From Candidatus Methanoperedens sp. (GTDB lineage Archaea; Halobacteriota; Methanosarcinia; Methanosarcinales; Methanoperedenaceae), in assembly GCA_026552975.1 (NCBI GenBank), contig JAPMTR010000070.1, positions 1-62,273 of the forward strand: a DNA stretch of 62,273 bases, in the 5' to 3' direction. The translations under genes and the position numbers were made by a program. Positions within the stretch are counted from its first letter, which is position 1. Each line of letters begins with the position of its first letter. This document shows positions 38,886-44,588 of the stretch, one piece after another. The notes beneath the pieces were generated by a model that did not search any database, had not been told where the DNA came from, and saw nothing but the letters and a program-made list of their open reading frames with translations.

Positions 38886-40037
38886 TCAGCTCTTTTTCTC
38901 TGAAATATCGCGAATATCGATCACAGCGATTATCCCTTCATCAGTTTCCAGTGGGCTCATATTGATCTCCACCGGGAATTCACTACCATCCCTTCGTCTT
39001 GCAACCGAGCTTAGATGAAGCGCCATGATTTTTGTTGTTGGATCGGCAAAATAACTCTTGCAGTATGCAATATGTTTTCCTCTGTATCGCATTGGTATCA
39101 GGATATCATAAGAGCCACCCAACAATTCGAGTCTGCTATATCCAAATAGTCTTTCGGTTTTCGAATTGATAAGAAGGATATGAGCATTCTGGTCGATGGC
39201 AATGATGGCATCTGGAGTCCCATCAATTAACATCTGGAAGTTCTTCTGTGCTCTTTTGCGATGAGTAATATCAATGACCATGCCTTCAAGACCAACTACC
39301 ATGCCCTTCGTATCCCTTAAGGCATGAGCATTTATTGAAACCCAGATCTTACTTTCATCCTTTCTAAATATCTGGGCTTCAAAATCGGAAACTTTGCCAT
39401 CTGCCTGTATCAATCTAAAAAGATGGAGGCGCCTTCCCGGATCTGCATATAATTTGCGGGTATCTGTCACAGTCGCAATAAGTTCCTCTGCTGATGAATA
39501 GCCCAGAAGTTCCACACAAGCAGGATTTGCTGAAAGAAAACGTCCATTTTTCGTTGTCTGGAAAATCCCTTCAGCGGCATTTTCAAAAATGCCCCGGTAT
39601 TTTGCTTCACTTATCTTTATTGCCTCTTCCATCTTCTTGTGTTCCGTGATGTCACGGACAATGCTTAAAACATTAATGCCGTCTGGTGTTTCGATATAAC
39701 CAAGGGCTATATCAACTGGAAATTCAGAACCATCCTTTCTCAATGCATAAAGCTCAAGGTCAGCTCCCATGAGGCGTATCCTGGGATGTTGCATGAACTC
39801 TTTCATTTTTAAATTGTGCTTTTCCCTGAAGCTCTCAGGTATGATGAGATCGACGGGTTTTCCGATCAGCTCTTGCGCGGTATATCCGAAGATTTTCTCA
39901 GCCTGGGCATTGGCGTTTAATATGATACCTTTATTATTTACAACAATTATCGCATCAGGAGCAAAATCAAAAAGACTCTTGAACAATGTATTAACTTCTG
40001 GCAAATTAGAACCGGTATTTTTTTTGATATCATTCAT
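38886..40037 (-). CDS. Protein with three PAS domains and no output domain
   Basis: A 383-aa soluble sensor. PAS 1 spans about residues 14-125 (PDAIIVVNNKGIILNANAQA), PAS 2 about 130-250 (FENAAEGIFQTTKNGRF), PAS 3 about 260-383 (GTPDAIIAIDQNAHILLINS). PAC-like ends (LSIVRDITEHKKMEE, IDITHRKRAQ, DIRDISEKKS) follow each. No histidine kinase, GGDEF, effector or HTH domain follows; the protein ends right after the third PAC. It must act through another protein or be a fragment of a split kinase. ATG 40037 is chosen over 40052. Confidence 0.85.
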   Translation of the reverse strand: MNDIKKNTGSNLPEVNTLFKSLFDFAPDAIIVVNNKGIILNANAQAEKIFGYTAQELIGKPVDLIIPESFREKHNLKMKEFMQHPRIRLMGADLELYALRKDGSEFPVDIALGYIETPDGINVLSIVRDITEHKKMEEAIKISEAKYRGIFENAAEGIFQTTKNGRFLSANPACVELLGYSSAEELIATVTDTRKLYADPGRRLHLFRLIQADGKVSDFEAQIFRKDESKIWVSINAHALRDTKGMVVGLEGMVIDITHRKRAQKNFQMLIDGTPDAIIAIDQNAHILLINSKTERLFGYSRLELLGGSYDILIPMRYRGKHIAYCKSYFADPTTKIMALHLSSVARRRDGSEFPVEINMSPLETDEGIIAVIDIRDISEKKS

Positions 40038-40143
40038 GCTAAGCTCCCACAAATATATTGTTTCACCATATCATCATATTAATCCATAGAACGAACAAAT
40101 GTTTTTTAATATAACAATTTTAAAGAATAAGAAACTATGTTTA

Positions 40144-40320
40144 TCAATCAACCTTGAAAAAAATCGGCATGATCCCGATCATTCCTCCAAGTCCAAAAAG
40201 AAAAAGGGCTAAATAATAATTGCCCTTTGAAACATTATCGATGCAAAGGGCTAACAGGATGAGTCCTGTGAATTTTGAAACCGCATCTATCTTTTCGTAT
40301 TTCGATCTTGAAAATCTCAT
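40144..40320 (-). CDS. Small membrane subunit of the Rieske/cytochrome b operon
   Basis: A 58-aa protein starting MRFSRSKYEKIDAVSK, with two hydrophobic helices (FTGLILLALCI and LALFLFGLGGMIGIMPIFF). Its ATG overlaps the stop of the cytochrome b C-terminal gene by 1 nt, so it is the last gene of the operon. It could be an accessory subunit of the complex. A longer ORF of 139 aa in this frame is an artefact of reading through the neighbour. Confidence 0.55.
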   Translation of the reverse strand: MRFSRSKYEKIDAVSKFTGLILLALCIDNVSKGNYYLALFLFGLGGMIGIMPIFFKVD

Positions 40321-40778
40321 CAATGGTGGACTATGCTGAAGTATGTGAAATAGAGTATCCCAAGAAGCGCTATTACCCCAAGAGCCACTGCGACCTTTCT
40401 TTTCCTGATATCGATCGAAGGGTTTCGGTCTATGAATGGAACCATGAAGAGAAGGCCGTACCACAATACCATGGGTAACGTAACCCCTATCATTTTTGCA
40501 TCTATCGGTCCTATATCCCATGTCCAGAATTTGAGGAAACCAAAGACATACAGGAAATACCATTCAGGATATATAGGCGTGGGTGTATCGAAAGGGTCAG
40601 CCGGTTTTAGAAGGCCTGCCGGATAAATTGATGCCATCAATATGAGACTTCCTGCTATGAAACACATAACAACAACTTCACGTAGCAGGAAATGCGGAAA
40701 GAAGGGAAGACCGGTTATCCTGACAGGTTCCCTGTCTTTTTTCTCTCCTTTCTTTTTTTCTGTTTCTGTCAATGACAT
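40320..40778 (-). CDS. Cytochrome b C-terminal domain (subunit IV-like)
   Basis: A 152-aa membrane protein corresponding to the PetD/cytochrome b C-terminal half. It has the Qo-site motif PEWYFLYVFGFLKF, preceded by TPTPIY, and three predicted membrane spans. The charged N-terminus (MSLTETEKKKGEKKDREP) is cytoplasmic. GGGAGG precedes ATG 40778 and only 1 bp separates it from the b-haem half, so together they make a split cytochrome b as in b6f complexes. Confidence 0.9.
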   Translation of the reverse strand: MSLTETEKKKGEKKDREPVRITGLPFFPHFLLREVVVMCFIAGSLILMASIYPAGLLKPADPFDTPTPIYPEWYFLYVFGFLKFWTWDIGPIDAKMIGVTLPMVLWYGLLFMVPFIDRNPSIDIRKRKVAVALGVIALLGILYFTYFSIVHH

Positions 40779-40779
40779 A

Positions 40780-41442
40780 TTATAACCTCCCTGAGATGCC
40801 CTGTATCCTTACCATTGCAAAATGCAATACCAGGAGAATTGCAGTTGTTAAAGGAAGGACCATTACATGGATGGCAAAGAAACGCGTCATAGTCTCTGCG
40901 CCAATGTCAGTTCCACCCACCAGGAGCAAGGAAATATATTGACCCATAATTGGAATTGAACCTGCAATTCCTGTTCCTATTTTTGTCGCCCAGAAAGCAA
41001 GCTGGTCCCAGGGCAGCAGATATCCCGAGAAACCAAAAGTTGTAGTGATCAACAACAATGTTACGCCAACCACCCAATTCAGTTCACGCGGTTTCTTATA
41101 GGCGCCCATAAAGTAGATCCTCATCATATGAAGCATTACTGCGGCTATCATCATATTTGCCGCCCAGTGATGGATGCTTCGTATCAGGCTTCCCATTGGC
41201 ACCACGGTCATGATGTGTTCCACGCTCTTATAAGCTTCAAGCGGAGTGGGTTTATAGTACATGGCAAGGAAGATCCCTGTCCCGACCAGGATAAGGAAAC
41301 ACAAAAACGCAGTTCCTCCAAGACAATATAATGGATTTGTTACCGCGTAGTCTGGCGCAGGATGCTTCACTATTGATGTTAATAGATCCTTTATTTTGAA
41401 CCTGCTATATATCCATTCGTTGATATTATCTAATAAAGACAT
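40780..41442 (-). CDS. Cytochrome b N-terminal domain (b6-type)
   Basis: A 220-aa diheme cytochrome b. The first His pair region is RSIHHWAANMMIAAVMLHMMR and the second HVMVLPLTTAILLVLHF, with the Qo-site sequence PWDQLAFWATKIGTGI. There are four predicted spans. It should oxidise menaquinol or methanophenazine at the membrane and pass electrons to the Rieske protein. GAGGTAAT precedes its ATG. Gene order Rieske-b6-subunit IV is standard. Confidence 0.94.
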   Translation of the reverse strand: MSLLDNINEWIYSRFKIKDLLTSIVKHPAPDYAVTNPLYCLGGTAFLCFLILVGTGIFLAMYYKPTPLEAYKSVEHIMTVVPMGSLIRSIHHWAANMMIAAVMLHMMRIYFMGAYKKPRELNWVVGVTLLLITTTFGFSGYLLPWDQLAFWATKIGTGIAGSIPIMGQYISLLLVGGTDIGAETMTRFFAIHVMVLPLTTAILLVLHFAMVRIQGISGRL

Positions 41443-41448
41443 ATTACC

Positions 41449-41943
41449 TCACGCTGCTCCTGCATAGAATGAAATGGTATTTACGTAATTCGGGTCTTTC
41501 CATTTAAGGGCGAACACCTCTCCATCCTTAACTACTACATCTATAGCCGGCAAAGGAGATGGTGGTGGTCCCGATAATACCGCGCCTGTATTGGGGTCGA
41601 ACTTGCCAAGGTGGCAAGGACAGAAAAGGATATTCTCATCCTGTTTCCAGTAAGCGATACAGCCCAGGTGTGTGCAAACAGACCCGAATGCCCTGAAACC
41701 CGCAGGCATATGGATCAGGACAGCCGCTTTTCCATTGAACATGAATTTCTTTACACTTCCAGATGGCACTTCATCAGCATTTGCAATTTTTATTTCAGTG
41801 CTCTCTCCCTTTGCAGCAGTCGCAGGCCAGAGATATTTCAATATAGATGCTATTGTTCCTCCTGCAAAGAACAATGCAACCAATCCCATAAGAATTTCAG
41901 TAAGTTTCCTTCTTGTAATAGTAAGTGTGATCTTATCTTCCAT
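41449..41943 (-). CDS. Rieske iron-sulfur protein
   Basis: A 164-aa Rieske protein with an N-terminal membrane anchor (ILMGLVALFFAGGTIASIL) and the [2Fe-2S] ligands in CTHLGC and CPCHLGKFD, followed by the GPPPSPLP hinge. The start is ATG 41943, 8 nt after GGAG, just beyond the stop of the upstream gene. Together with the split cytochrome b it forms the core of a bc1/b6f-like complex on the outer face of the cell membrane. Confidence 0.95.
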   Translation of the reverse strand: MEDKITLTITRRKLTEILMGLVALFFAGGTIASILKYLWPATAAKGESTEIKIANADEVPSGSVKKFMFNGKAAVLIHMPAGFRAFGSVCTHLGCIAYWKQDENILFCPCHLGKFDPNTGAVLSGPPPSPLPAIDVVVKDGEVFALKWKDPNYVNTISFYAGAA

Positions 41944-41948
41944 AGATA

Positions 41949-42224
41949 TCACTCCAATGTCGTAACGTATTCGTCGCGCAGCAATCCTTTAACGTAAAGG
42001 TAGATTATCGCTCCCAGGTCAAAGAGGAGATATGCAAGCAATGTTCCAACTTCTTCAATGAATGATCTTGTCGCAGCCATTTCAGCATCGCTTGAAAGGA
42101 TCTTCCAGAAAATACTACCGGTTATCACTGTTGCCAGAAGTGTTAATAAAATTACCAGCGCAAATGCAACATTTGACCACATTCCTGTTTTTTCGGGCCC
42201 ATATTCGATTTTTTCTATATGCAT
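41949..42224 (-). CDS. Small two-span membrane protein of the Rieske operon
   Basis: A 91-aa protein with two membrane helices (VAFALVILLTLLATVITGSIF and LAYLLFDLGAIIYLYVKGLL) and a cytoplasmic-looking C-terminus. It contains no haem or Fe-S motif. Its location between the monohaem cytochrome and the Rieske gene in an operon with short gaps suggests it is a structural subunit. Not recognised by family. Confidence 0.6.
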   Translation of the reverse strand: MHIEKIEYGPEKTGMWSNVAFALVILLTLLATVITGSIFWKILSSDAEMAATRSFIEEVGTLLAYLLFDLGAIIYLYVKGLLRDEYVTTLE

Positions 42225-42233
42225 AAGATCATC

Positions 42234-42581
42234 TCACAACCGTATTAAATAAACAACCAAAAGCATGAGGAGTAAAATAGAGAATGCTCTCATTCCAACA
42301 TCCCAGGTAGTCATGTGAACTCCGATCTCGATCTCCTTTATCGGCTCCGGGGTCGGTGTCGCCTTTGGCGCCGGGACATAGCCTTCGGCAGAATGATTGT
42401 GGGTCACATAATAGACGCCGATTTCATTGAGCTGCGGCGGTCCATCCCTTGTGTGGCAAAATGGGCAATTCCTGCTTTCTTTAACAGCATATTCAGGTCT
42501 TGCAAAAGCCAGAGATGGCGTGAATAATAAGAAAACTAATGCAATCAGAATTATGATCTTATTAAATCGTCGTTTATTCAT
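42234..42581 (-). CDS. Membrane-anchored monohaem cytochrome c
   Basis: A 115-aa exported protein with signal (IIILIALVFLLFTPSLAFA), one CxxCH site (CPFCHTRDGPPQLNEIG) and a C-terminal membrane span. A Pro-rich stalk (PAPKATPTPEP) separates them. It can carry electrons from the Rieske protein to the multihaem cytochromes encoded upstream. The axial second ligand could be a His in YVTHNHSAEG. Operon gap to the next gene is 9 bp. Confidence 0.85.
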   Translation of the reverse strand: MNKRRFNKIIILIALVFLLFTPSLAFARPEYAVKESRNCPFCHTRDGPPQLNEIGVYYVTHNHSAEGYVPAPKATPTPEPIKEIEIGVHMTTWDVGMRAFSILLLMLLVVYLIRL

Positions 42582-42597
42582 AATAATTACACCTCTT

Positions 42598-43527
42598 TCA
42601 TTTTCGTCTTACCAGTAGATAGATGGAGCTCATTCCGATCAGTGATGATATTATTCCGAATCCCGGTGTTTTTGGCTTTTCAGGCGGGAAACCAGAGTCC
42701 TCCTGCGAGGTCCGTGCATAATTTATACCTTCGTCAGTCACATTCTGGAAATGCGGAAGGTTGAAGCTATGCCACTGGATTGGAAGATTGTCCTGTATGG
42801 ATATTGCAGCATCAAGATGTTTCTGGGCAGCTGTGATATCTTTTCCCTGTTGTTTTGCCCGTTGTATGGCTGATCTGGCTTTGAAGATCTCCGATTTCAA
42901 TGCCTGTGCATTTTCAATGGCCTTTGAAGCTTTTTCAGGAATATCCGGGGCGATCTCCAATTCAATATTATGACAACTGCTGCAAAGATCCTTAAAATCA
43001 GTGCTATTCAATACCTTAAATTCATGAGGGCTGTGACATGTATCGCACGTTGGGGCCTGTTTAAGATCTTTTAATCTTTGATAATGTAAGGACTCTTTAA
43101 ACTGATTATATTCCTCCGTATGACATTTTCCGCAGGTCTCCGGTACATTCCTGTAGAACACCGAACCATTAGGATCTGATGATCGCAAAACTCCTATATG
43201 AGCAGACTCTTTCACATCAGAAGAAGGATCCCCCCCATGACAATTATTGCATGTTACCTGGAACAGGGCATGTTTGGATCTTGTCCATTGTTCATAGTTG
43301 CTTTTTGCAAATTTATCTAATGTAGTCGCATGGCATTCAAGAGAACATGCTACATCTCTTTCGAGATGTTTTATTCTTACTTCATTCAGTTGTTTTTCTT
43401 TTTCATTGAATGCAGTAAGTTTTTCATGACAATCAAGGCAGGAGTTATCTGAAGCCAGGGATGGAGCACCAAAAAGTGTTAATATACAAATAAAACATAC
43501 AAATGTGAACATTTCTCTTTTTTTCAT
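42598..43527 (-). CDS. PGF-anchored multihaem cytochrome c (six sites)
   Basis: A 309-aa exported protein with signal peptide (FVCFICILTLFGAPSLA). Haem sites are CLDCH, CNNCH, CGKCH, CDTCH and CSSCH plus an unusual CSLECH with three residues between the Cys. A helical segment without haem follows, and the C-terminus PGFGIISSLIGMSSIYLLVRRK-like tail fits a PGF-CTERM surface anchor. It is a paralogue of the neighbouring gene at 43571, sharing HALFxVTCxxCHGGDP, the LHYxxL segment and the C-terminal half. Likely carries electrons across the outer surface. Confidence 0.88.
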   Translation of the reverse strand: MKKREMFTFVCFICILTLFGAPSLASDNSCLDCHEKLTAFNEKEKQLNEVRIKHLERDVACSLECHATTLDKFAKSNYEQWTRSKHALFQVTCNNCHGGDPSSDVKESAHIGVLRSSDPNGSVFYRNVPETCGKCHTEEYNQFKESLHYQRLKDLKQAPTCDTCHSPHEFKVLNSTDFKDLCSSCHNIELEIAPDIPEKASKAIENAQALKSEIFKARSAIQRAKQQGKDITAAQKHLDAAISIQDNLPIQWHSFNLPHFQNVTDEGINYARTSQEDSGFPPEKPKTPGFGIISSLIGMSSIYLLVRRK

Positions 43528-43570
43528 TTGATCACCTTGTTTAAATCATTGACTTTTTGATAATGATCCT

Positions 43571-44431
43571 TCAGTGCCTCTTTATAAAATATATTATGAT
43601 CATGACAGACATTAATGTGAATATCCCAAATCCTGGCGATTTTGCAGGTGGGGTTTGTGTGGCAGTTGCTCCAGCCAATAATTTTTCTGCATTCTTTGCA
43701 TTTTCGATACCTTTTTGCACTTCAGTGTCAAAGTAAGTAAGGTTAAACCTGTGCCAGACCGAAGGAGCACTTTTCAAGATAGTCCTTGCTTCCTCAAGAT
43801 CGATCTCAGCTGATCTTACATCTTTCCCATTTTCTTTTGCAGATATAACCGCTCCTCTGGCGATTGAAATTTCAAACTGCAATTCTTTTAATGATTCAAG
43901 CGCTTTCTTGGCTTTCCCGGGTACTGATGGATTGATGCCTGTATCAATATTATGGCAACTAATACAGAAATCCATTAATTCTGAAGATGTCAGGACGCGT
44001 ACAGTATGTTTCTGGTGGCATGTGATGCAAGCAGGGGCAGGTCCGGACTGGCCGGATTCTAATTTCTTGTAATGCTGTGAACCCTTGAACTCATTAAGTT
44101 CAGGTTCATGGCATTTGCCGCACATTGCTGGAGTATTTTCATTTAAAATAGCTTCCTTTGAAATATTCTTATGTGCGTCCTCCTTTGAAACCATTAATGG
44201 GTCTCCACCATGGCACTTTTCACATGTTACCTCAAATAGCGCATGTGTGGATATTGCCCACTTTCCATATGTGTTCGATATACCATCTTCGGCAGGCATT
44301 TTTCGATGGCAGTCCGCGCATGAGTTATTCGGCATATCCGGAGCTTTTGCTTCAACGGGTTGCATCGCCTGAAATATCAAAAATACAAAAGCTATTCCTA
44401 TAATAATTTTTGAAACGTTTTTATTTATCAT
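43571..44431 (-). CDS. PGF-anchored multihaem cytochrome c (five sites)
   Basis: A 286-aa exported protein starting at ATG 44431 (MINKNVSKIIIGIAF), six bases after GGAG; upstream in-frame Mets add a non-signal extension. Five CxxCH sites are CADCH, CEKCH, CGKCH, CITCH and CISCH. It has the same layout as the protein at 42598, with the tail PGFGIFTLMSVMIII ending KRH, a PGF-CTERM-like anchor. It is the first gene of the Rieske operon, so its promoter is in the AT-rich spacer 44432-44588. Confidence 0.88.
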   Translation of the reverse strand: MINKNVSKIIIGIAFVFLIFQAMQPVEAKAPDMPNNSCADCHRKMPAEDGISNTYGKWAISTHALFEVTCEKCHGGDPLMVSKEDAHKNISKEAILNENTPAMCGKCHEPELNEFKGSQHYKKLESGQSGPAPACITCHQKHTVRVLTSSELMDFCISCHNIDTGINPSVPGKAKKALESLKELQFEISIARGAVISAKENGKDVRSAEIDLEEARTILKSAPSVWHRFNLTYFDTEVQKGIENAKNAEKLLAGATATQTPPAKSPGFGIFTLMSVMIIIYFIKRH

Positions 44432-44588
44432 ATAATACTCCATCATATACATCACCATCATTAGTTAAATTATTAATAATGATATTTACACTCACTTTTA
44501 TTTGTAAATATTTAAACTTATCCCAGAAAAAGATATAAACACATATATTATAATTATATTATTATATTATATTATGTGATACTATTTT

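Follow-up and report, generated by a model that had tools for sequence, protein, structure and literature searches.

Described counterparts of the locus

The closest described system to the one analysed here is the cluster MPEBLZ_00816-00823, which was described as encoding two pentahaem cytochromes, a further cytochrome, a Rieske protein, the parts of a cytochrome b and two hypothetical proteins, with all eight genes expressed at similar levels (Arshad 2015, PMC4683180). Its authors proposed that it passes electrons from menaquinol to a pseudoperiplasmic nitrate reductase and stated that both of its multihaem cytochromes (MHCs) have an additional CxxxCH motif (PMC4683180); in a word search of the main text of that paper neither "heme ci" nor "covalent" occurred. 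The window examined here is the whole of a 62,273-nucleotide stretch of DNA from Candidatus Methanoperedens sp. (contig JAPMTR010000070.1 of assembly GCA_026552975.1), i.e. contig C50 of a Methanoperedenaceae draft genome of 2.57 Mb in 121 contigs; loci, genomes and contigs are denoted below by L, G and C numbers where they must be told apart. Its operon, complement(40144..44431), has the same eight genes as the MPEBLZ cluster, and its two MHCs, here MHC-A and MHC-B, have at least five CXXCH haem sites each, but unlike its MPEBLZ counterpart MHC-A of the window lacks CX3CH and the accompanying distal histidine. In the BLZ2 genome the gene order is again the same, and both MHCs have CX3CH (L036/L076).

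Five menaquinone:cytochrome c oxidoreductase clusters were distinguished by Leu (2020, PMC7327174), one of them a non-canonical bc1/b6f cluster with two hypothetical proteins and two six-haem MHCs, and one group of Methanoperedenaceae cytochromes b was said to cluster with Archaeoglobi (Leu 2020, PMC7327174 and PMC7082337). The window operon resembles that cluster in that the nearest relatives found here are also Archaeoglobi, and differs from it in that one of its two MHCs has five haem sites. For M. nitroreducens, a Group 5 that includes two MHCs (Methanoperedens_01167/01168) was reported to be highest with nitrate, and a Group 1 (02260, 02261, 02264, 02265) to be highest with soluble iron (Zhang 2023, PMC10542353). 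Since the spacing of Group 1 matches that of an NrfD cluster of this organism (L063: an MHC, a small cytochrome, a 4Fe-4S protein, NrfD, an MHC and a 12-haem cytochrome), Group 5 is most likely the operon type of the window. The operon has thus already been published, and the one described here is a new member of the Methanoperedenaceae menaquinone:cytochrome c oxidoreductase cluster. What is added to the published picture is a putative modular loss of a haem and the prediction of a haem ci; in the literature searched, mostly papers readable without subscription, we found no statement of a covalent haem ci for Methanoperedens, and both "heme ci" and "covalent" were absent from all four main texts in which these words were looked for.

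An eight-gene operon conserved in Methanoperedenaceae and two Archaeoglobi

All eight open reading frames (ORFs) lie on the minus strand and follow each other, in the sense of transcription, as MHC-A, MHC-B, a monohaem c-type cytochrome, a 91-amino-acid membrane protein, a Rieske protein, cytochrome b6, subunit IV and a 58-amino-acid membrane protein, at intergenic distances of 43, 16, 9, -4, 6, 1 and -1 bases. The eight genes with tiny gaps described in the original prediction are therefore real (all co-directional, and separated by -4 to +43 bases), and its upper end at 44431 is also preferable: the longest MHC-A ORF begins at 44461, whereas the start at 44431 (MINKNVSK...) is the better one and agrees with the relatives.

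Among the named loci, which are the best 80 of 177 stretches, the nearest belong to 'Candidatus Methanoperedens' and Methanoperedenaceae, including BLZ2 and M. nitroreducens ANME-2d. The first seven genes were found in 26 of 27 relative loci, the 27th being cut by its contig end. The full set of eight was present in 25, with one further locus lacking a match for the smallest gene; in one relative locus (L049) the monohaem ORF is short, with 55 amino acids. Order and strand are identical across the 27 loci, with no exception, and this conservation shows that the arrangement is not due to chance. In a family sample of 34 Methanoperedenaceae genomes, own genome included, the cytochrome b6 profile matched in 28; for the 21 genomes with a completeness of 90% or more and a contamination of 5% or less the count is 20. 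The matching genomes have a single copy, apart from G010 with its additional, weaker match.

Outside the family the operon was observed in two Archaeoglobi, JdFR-42 and JdFR-37, which, in a comparison of 294 genomes of the phylum, also ranked directly behind the own genome for cytochrome b6 (E-value about 1e-106), the next matches having E-values of 4e-60 or weaker. In JdFR-42 an MHC with CX3CH and a c-type cytochrome are followed, in the same order as in the window, by homologues of the 91-amino-acid protein, the Rieske protein, cytochrome b6, subunit IV and the 58-amino-acid protein; unlike in the window, one MHC is visible in the locus and an NrfD-like gene set adjoins. In JdFR-37 the operon begins in the same way and the contig ends inside the Rieske gene, with homologues of cytochrome b6, subunit IV and the 58-amino-acid protein on another contig (L168). 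The archaeoglobal c-type subunit differs from that of the window in carrying two haem motifs (L134:7846-8385, L135:7561-8133), and one of these forms would be a shortened or extended version of the other.

More distant Rieske/cytochrome b clusters of the phylum (27 loci, probably mostly from haloarchaea) have a split cytochrome b as well, and in 18 of them matches to the profile of the 91-amino-acid protein adjoin it. All 27 have PDWY, as opposed to PEWY in Methanoperedenaceae, and 26 lack YCxGG. The idea that the haem-ci cysteine discussed below marks this complex uniquely within the phylum was rejected, since in the remaining locus (L177, genome G267) YCLGG stands at the haem-ci place, together with PDWY.

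A b6f-like core with a predicted covalent haem ci

The core of the operon was recognised by Pfam matches above the cut-offs for the Rieske protein (Rieske, 4.4e-11) and for both parts of cytochrome b (Cytochrome_B, 2e-54; Cytochrom_B_C, 6.2e-12). Cytochrome b6 (40780..41442, minus strand, as are all features of the operon) has its b-haem histidines at positions 91/92, 105, 192 and 207, and in comparisons with known structures it matched b6f (1q90) with an E-value of 1.3e-65 and bc1 with 2.1e-36 at best. The spacing of His192 and His207 in helix D is that of the b6f type. Cys40 (codon 41323..41325), within a PLYCLGG motif that is present in all 27 cytochrome b6 rows, window included, is aligned with the cysteine of YC[IL]GG in b6f cytochrome b6 (1q90, 6rqf), which carries haem ci there; a covalent haem ci on cytochrome b6 is predicted from this correspondence. 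The subunit IV-like half of cytochrome b (40320..40778) has PEWY (40557-40568) in all 27 rows, window included, and a Glu34 that is invariant (27/27) and that, in the alignment to b6f, is one residue off Phe40. Phe40 of b6f subunit IV adjoins haem ci, and there is a hint that Glu34 may be a ligand of that haem. Glu-ligated cN haems are described in PMC12954380, which also cites a report of a covalent haem on a Bacillus cytochrome b.

The Rieske iron-sulphur protein (41449..41952) has the ligand motifs CTHLGC and CPCHLGKF; CTHLGC is found in all 28 rows and CPCH[LI]G[KR][FY] in 27, the remaining row being cut by a contig end. In none of the 27 readable rows is the potential-raising serine present, and in 20 of the 27 the tyrosine is replaced by Phe. 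In yeast, removal of the serine or the tyrosine was reported to lower the potential by about 130 or 65 mV, respectively, although the same source gives an exception to the tyrosine rule (PMC12954380). Because the serine, and mostly also the tyrosine, is gone, a low-potential Rieske cluster, compatible with menaquinol, is to be expected here. From these residues and from the menaquinone pathway, described in both M. nitroreducens genomes (Arshad 2015, PMC4683180), we infer that the complex oxidises menaquinol.

The third redox component is the monohaem c-type cytochrome (42234..42581; 115 amino acids, with a C-terminal membrane helix). Like the 58-amino-acid predicted membrane protein encoded by the last gene (40144..40320), which has a homologue in the archaeoglobal operon too, it had no Pfam or NCBIfam match at an E-value of 0.1. 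Its CXXCH, His63, His89 and Met90 are invariant in all 20 aligned rows. Stretches resembling this subunit also occur within proteins of five to six haems in other genomes of the phylum (L159:8567-9376, L163:2339-3190, L164:2496-3203 and L165:4070-4993), in different gene settings. The 91-amino-acid membrane protein (41949..42224) is weakly DUF7318-like (20.9 bits, cut-off 27).

The split cytochrome b, the haem-ci cysteine and PEWY are all shared with cytochrome b6f (1q90, 6rqf). In contrast to b6f, however, the complex has no cytochrome f, its Rieske protein lacks the serine, and multihaem cytochromes are added. Because the c-type subunit is a 115-amino-acid monohaem protein of another kind, with no match in Pfam or NCBIfam, the core is best called b6f-like rather than b6f. 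It also differs from cytochrome bc1, in that cytochrome b is split and not in one piece and in that no c1 match was found in Pfam or NCBIfam. The b6f-like Rieske/split-cytochrome-b core with c-type cytochromes that had originally been proposed is thus borne out by the Pfam hits, the matches to b6f and the motifs. Absence of quinone-site residues had been named as what would speak against it; at the sequence level none of PEWY, the b-haem histidines, the Rieske ligands or the haem-ci cysteine is missing.

Loss of a putative haem site and its probable ligand in MHC-A

MHC-A (43571..44431) has a signal peptide, five CXXCH haem sites, a C-terminal helical bundle and a tail made up of SPGF, a helix and basic residues. 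MHC-B (42598..43527) has five CXXCH sites and one CX3CH (CSLECH, residues 61-66, 43330..43347), followed by a C-terminal helical bundle and a PGF-CTERM-like tail. The two proteins are paralogous (41% identity), and MHC-A has no CX3CH. The original prediction held that one paralogue had gained this site, which inverts the polarity of the change. CX3CH is present in the A protein of all 28 other genomes and in the B protein of all 29, the window's included (one B is truncated at a contig end, yet its motif is visible). A gain in MHC-B was rejected because A-type, B-type and Archaeoglobi relatives all carry the motif, and it is MHC-A of the window that has lost it. In the relatives, the segment of MHC-A 3' of the first haem motif (44260..44306 in the window) contains about 30 extra residues with the distal histidine and CX3CH.

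We compared 118 rows, namely 113 of 127 named family hits that passed score and length cuts, together with five further ones taken from the window, from its genome and from G009. The only archaeal rows without CX3CH are MHC-A of the window, a paralogue of type D in the same genome (L062) and an extra paralogue of G009 (L068); five bacterial rows lack both the motif and its distal histidine. CX3CH and the non-motif His54 (MHC-B numbering; 43366-43368) occur together in 110 rows, are both missing in eight and are never found separately, and His54 of MHC-B is probably the ligand of the CX3CH haem. The 17 aligned MHC rows share 12 invariant histidines, half of them in motifs and half distal, as six bis-histidine haems require; across the 118 rows distal His168 is replaced by Met in five. 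These patterns make CX3CH a putative haem-binding site.

A careful tree was built, without residues 28-80, from 59 rows picked from the 118 (omitting the Archaeoglobus copy L135_5649, which has a long branch, and two of the five bacterial rows). On this tree four changes are needed to explain the absence of CX3CH, and supported branches force every one of them (5-95% range 4-4 in 200 bootstrap trees). One falls between bacteria and archaea, and the other three would most simply be losses. With the root not fixed, it is possible that CX3CH was gained once, at an earlier point, where the archaeal branch begins. A quick tree of all 118 rows agrees on these changes; the long branch of the G009 row makes its placement less certain. 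The A and B clades are well separated (support 100/99 and 100/97), and a recent tandem duplication of A and B is not supported, as A, B, C and D form four separate supported clades, with their branching order unresolved. Nor is there support for an accelerated decay of MHC-A, whose terminal branch (0.36) is similar to that of MHC-B (0.35) in the same tree.

The gap in MHC-A is in frame and leaves motif 1 intact. An EDGIS stretch is left there, whose status as a remnant is ambiguous in the alignments, and no frame-shifted remnant of the CX3CH segment was found near MHC-A, the strong tblastn match being MHC-B itself. Gap boundaries differ in the other two archaeal cases, where the first Cys of motif 1 is fused to the CH of CX3CH: in this way the type D paralogue of the own genome (C60:27845-28723, L062:5846-6724) lost CX3CH together with the distal histidine, and the additional, B-like paralogue of G009, which has a long branch (L068:1573-2451, G009:C196, minus strand), shows a similar fused-motif loss. 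Types C and D stand together in the NrfD cluster of M. nitroreducens (L063:6761-12405), and in the own genome they lie on different contigs, C on C98 beside NrfD (L061) and D on C60 (L062).

The missing CX3CH in MHC-A is best read as a haem and its ligand having been removed jointly. Given the agreement in gene order, in tree position and in the remaining features, we take the absence for a loss within the family; the sixth site is treated as typical of the family but not as defining it, and the window operon stays a member. One may go further and regard CX3CH plus its distal histidine as a separable haem module that occurs across the archaeal branch of this cytochrome family and was removed cleanly several times, twice in the own genome, with the sixth haem as a tuneable exit or docking haem of an archaeal menaquinol oxidase that has a covalent haem ci; to this combined proposal we give about as much credence as doubt. 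If it is true, the five-haem A and the six-haem B would form a natural haem-knockout pair inside one respiratory complex.

Probable membrane anchoring, fold and alternative explanations

The tails of both MHCs consist of PGF, a hydrophobic helix and basic residues. Of the two, MHC-B matched the Pfam PGF-CTERM profile (PF18204) with 19.0 bits against a cut-off of 18.8 and stayed below the cut-off of the NCBIfam one (TIGR04126, 14.8 bits vs 24.5), while MHC-A had no match to either profile at an E-value of 0.1. Across the family, PF18204 matched 24 of 58 MHC members at E-values of 0.01 or less, and PGF was seen in 27 of the 29 A tails and in 25 of the 29 B tails; the four B proteins without it include one that is truncated at a contig end. 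In M. nitroreducens ANME-2d and a near relative (L051:4275-5216, L054:4006-4938) MHC-B ends in PGA, not PGF, with archaeosortase A present. Every one of the 34 family genomes encodes an archaeosortase A family protein; in the own genome three matches lie above the cut-off (the best 6.4e-73), one of them with an in-frame TGA. C-terminal anchors or PGF-CTERM motifs on small cytochromes of anaerobic methanotrophs were noted by Chadwick (2022, PMC9012536). Taken from the tails, PGF anchoring of MHC-A and MHC-B is plausible and a position at the outer face of the membrane likely. The tandem paralogues with PGF-type anchors of the original prediction thus hold as far as paralogy and tails are concerned, with borderline profile support and with PGF missing in some orthologues.

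A direct route to the cell surface, as had also been suggested, goes beyond what the sequence offers, since nothing in it shows surface location. Under that explanation PGF-processed MHC-A and MHC-B would stand outside the S-layer and themselves reduce metals or electrodes. The tails, the presence of archaeosortase A in every family genome and the PF18204 matches would all fit, and a metal-directed role could also draw on the high expression of the bc1/b6f operon reported for 'Ca. M. manganicus' reducing manganese (Leu 2020, PMC7082337). However, membrane-anchored proteins of about 30 kDa are unlikely to cross the S-layer, a task that has been ascribed to large cytochromes fused to S-layer domains (PMC9012536), and PGF is absent from two of 29 A and four of 29 B tails, the truncated one among them. 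Moreover, the cluster of M. nitroreducens that is probably orthologous peaks with nitrate and not with an electrode or soluble iron (PMC10542353). Exposure beyond the S-layer is thus not supported, and we regard the surface explanation as unlikely. A second alternative is that MHC-A and MHC-B, although encoded in the operon, act on their own as a redox enzyme or a sensor; their C-terminal bundle recalls NrfA, HAO and MccA. In Foldseek the top matches of MHC-B were indeed an undecahaem cytochrome from the S-layer of Carboxydothermus ferrireducens (6qvm), HAO, NrfA, octahaem nitrite reductases and MccA. At E-values of 0.01 or less, 35 of the 58 members give a match to the Cytochrom_C552 (NrfA) profile, and a WHxF is conserved after the helices. 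Yet none of the fold matches had an E-value below 0.05, and the NrfA match combined a probability of 0.97 with a template-modelling (TM) score of 0.28, the haem part of the query model being poor. All six haems have a candidate distal histidine, so that none would be left free for catalysis, and the MHC paralogue in the iron-sulphur/NrfD cluster fits an electron carrier; a separate enzyme or sensor appears quite unlikely.

Finally, the apparent loss in MHC-A might be an artefact of assembly or sequencing, the genome being a draft in 121 contigs, or CX3CH might not be a haem site at all, as the motif is unusual and AlphaFold confidence is low around it. Against this explanation stand a gap that is in frame and has no remnant nearby, the loss of the same site, at other boundaries, in L062 on contig C60 of the own genome and in a paralogue of G009, the way in which the motif and its distal histidine come and go together, and the four forced changes on the tree. 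It seems to us very improbable.

Several points weigh against the preferred reading, i.e. that of a menaquinol:cytochrome c oxidoreductase with a covalent haem ci and with five- and six-haem MHCs. The monohaem protein, which has no family match, could be a docking or assembly factor, and the prediction of haem ci rests on one cysteine. The AlphaFold models (mean pLDDT, the predicted local distance difference test score, 77.6 for MHC-B and 74.5 for MHC-A) are good mainly in the C-terminal helices and poor in the haem region, with pLDDT near 50-60 at residues 20-80 of MHC-B, too uncertain to place the CX3CH haem. In the literature consulted we found no biochemistry of the complex, and the group numbering is inconsistent within Leu (2020, PMC7327174). 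No NarG above the family cut-off was found in the own genome. A molybdopterin oxidoreductase of 1172 amino acids, similar to a 1157-amino-acid protein of M. nitroreducens (G001), is encoded at G000:C63:9054-11564 of that genome and stays below the NarG cut-off.

Proposed electron route and significance

Taken together, we consider it probable that the operon encodes a Methanoperedenaceae menaquinol:cytochrome c oxidoreductase of the Rieske/cytochrome b type, which feeds MHC-A and MHC-B and, through them, pseudoperiplasmic acceptors. The membrane-quinol half of the route originally proposed, i.e. a quinol:cytochrome c oxidoreductase, is thus retained, as the authors of the published clusters also hold, whereas its surface endpoint is not. 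Judging from the PEWY motif, menaquinol would be oxidised at the outer site. One electron would pass to the low-potential Rieske cluster, whose ligands are observed, and the other, via the two b haems, likewise with observed ligands, to the putative covalent haem ci on the inner side, where menaquinone would be re-reduced; through such a Q-cycle the complex would pump protons. The Rieske head would hand its electron to the membrane-anchored monohaem cytochrome, whose haem motif is observed and which may stand in for cytochrome f or c1, and this in turn to MHC-A and MHC-B as membrane-anchored wires. After the loss of the CX3CH haem and its distal histidine, A would be a five-haem and B a six-haem wire in this genome, the haem motifs being observed and the order of transfer being a proposal. 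From there electrons may reach a nitrate-reductase-type enzyme or larger, S-layer-crossing cytochromes in the pseudoperiplasm, which would agree with the published expression. Downstream of the operon, at a distance of 91 bases and on the same strand, lies a gene for a PAS-domain protein (38886-40052) that had no Pfam kinase match.

For the oxidation of methane Methanoperedens use nitrate, metals or electrodes, and the exit of electrons from their quinone pool is a central open question. This operon has been proposed for the exit step since 2015, and the predictions of a haem ci and of a low-potential Rieske cluster make that proposal testable. The natural pair of a five-haem and a six-haem cytochrome poses, in addition, the questions of whether CX3CH is a haem site or not, which histidine ligates the haem, and what the function of that haem may be.

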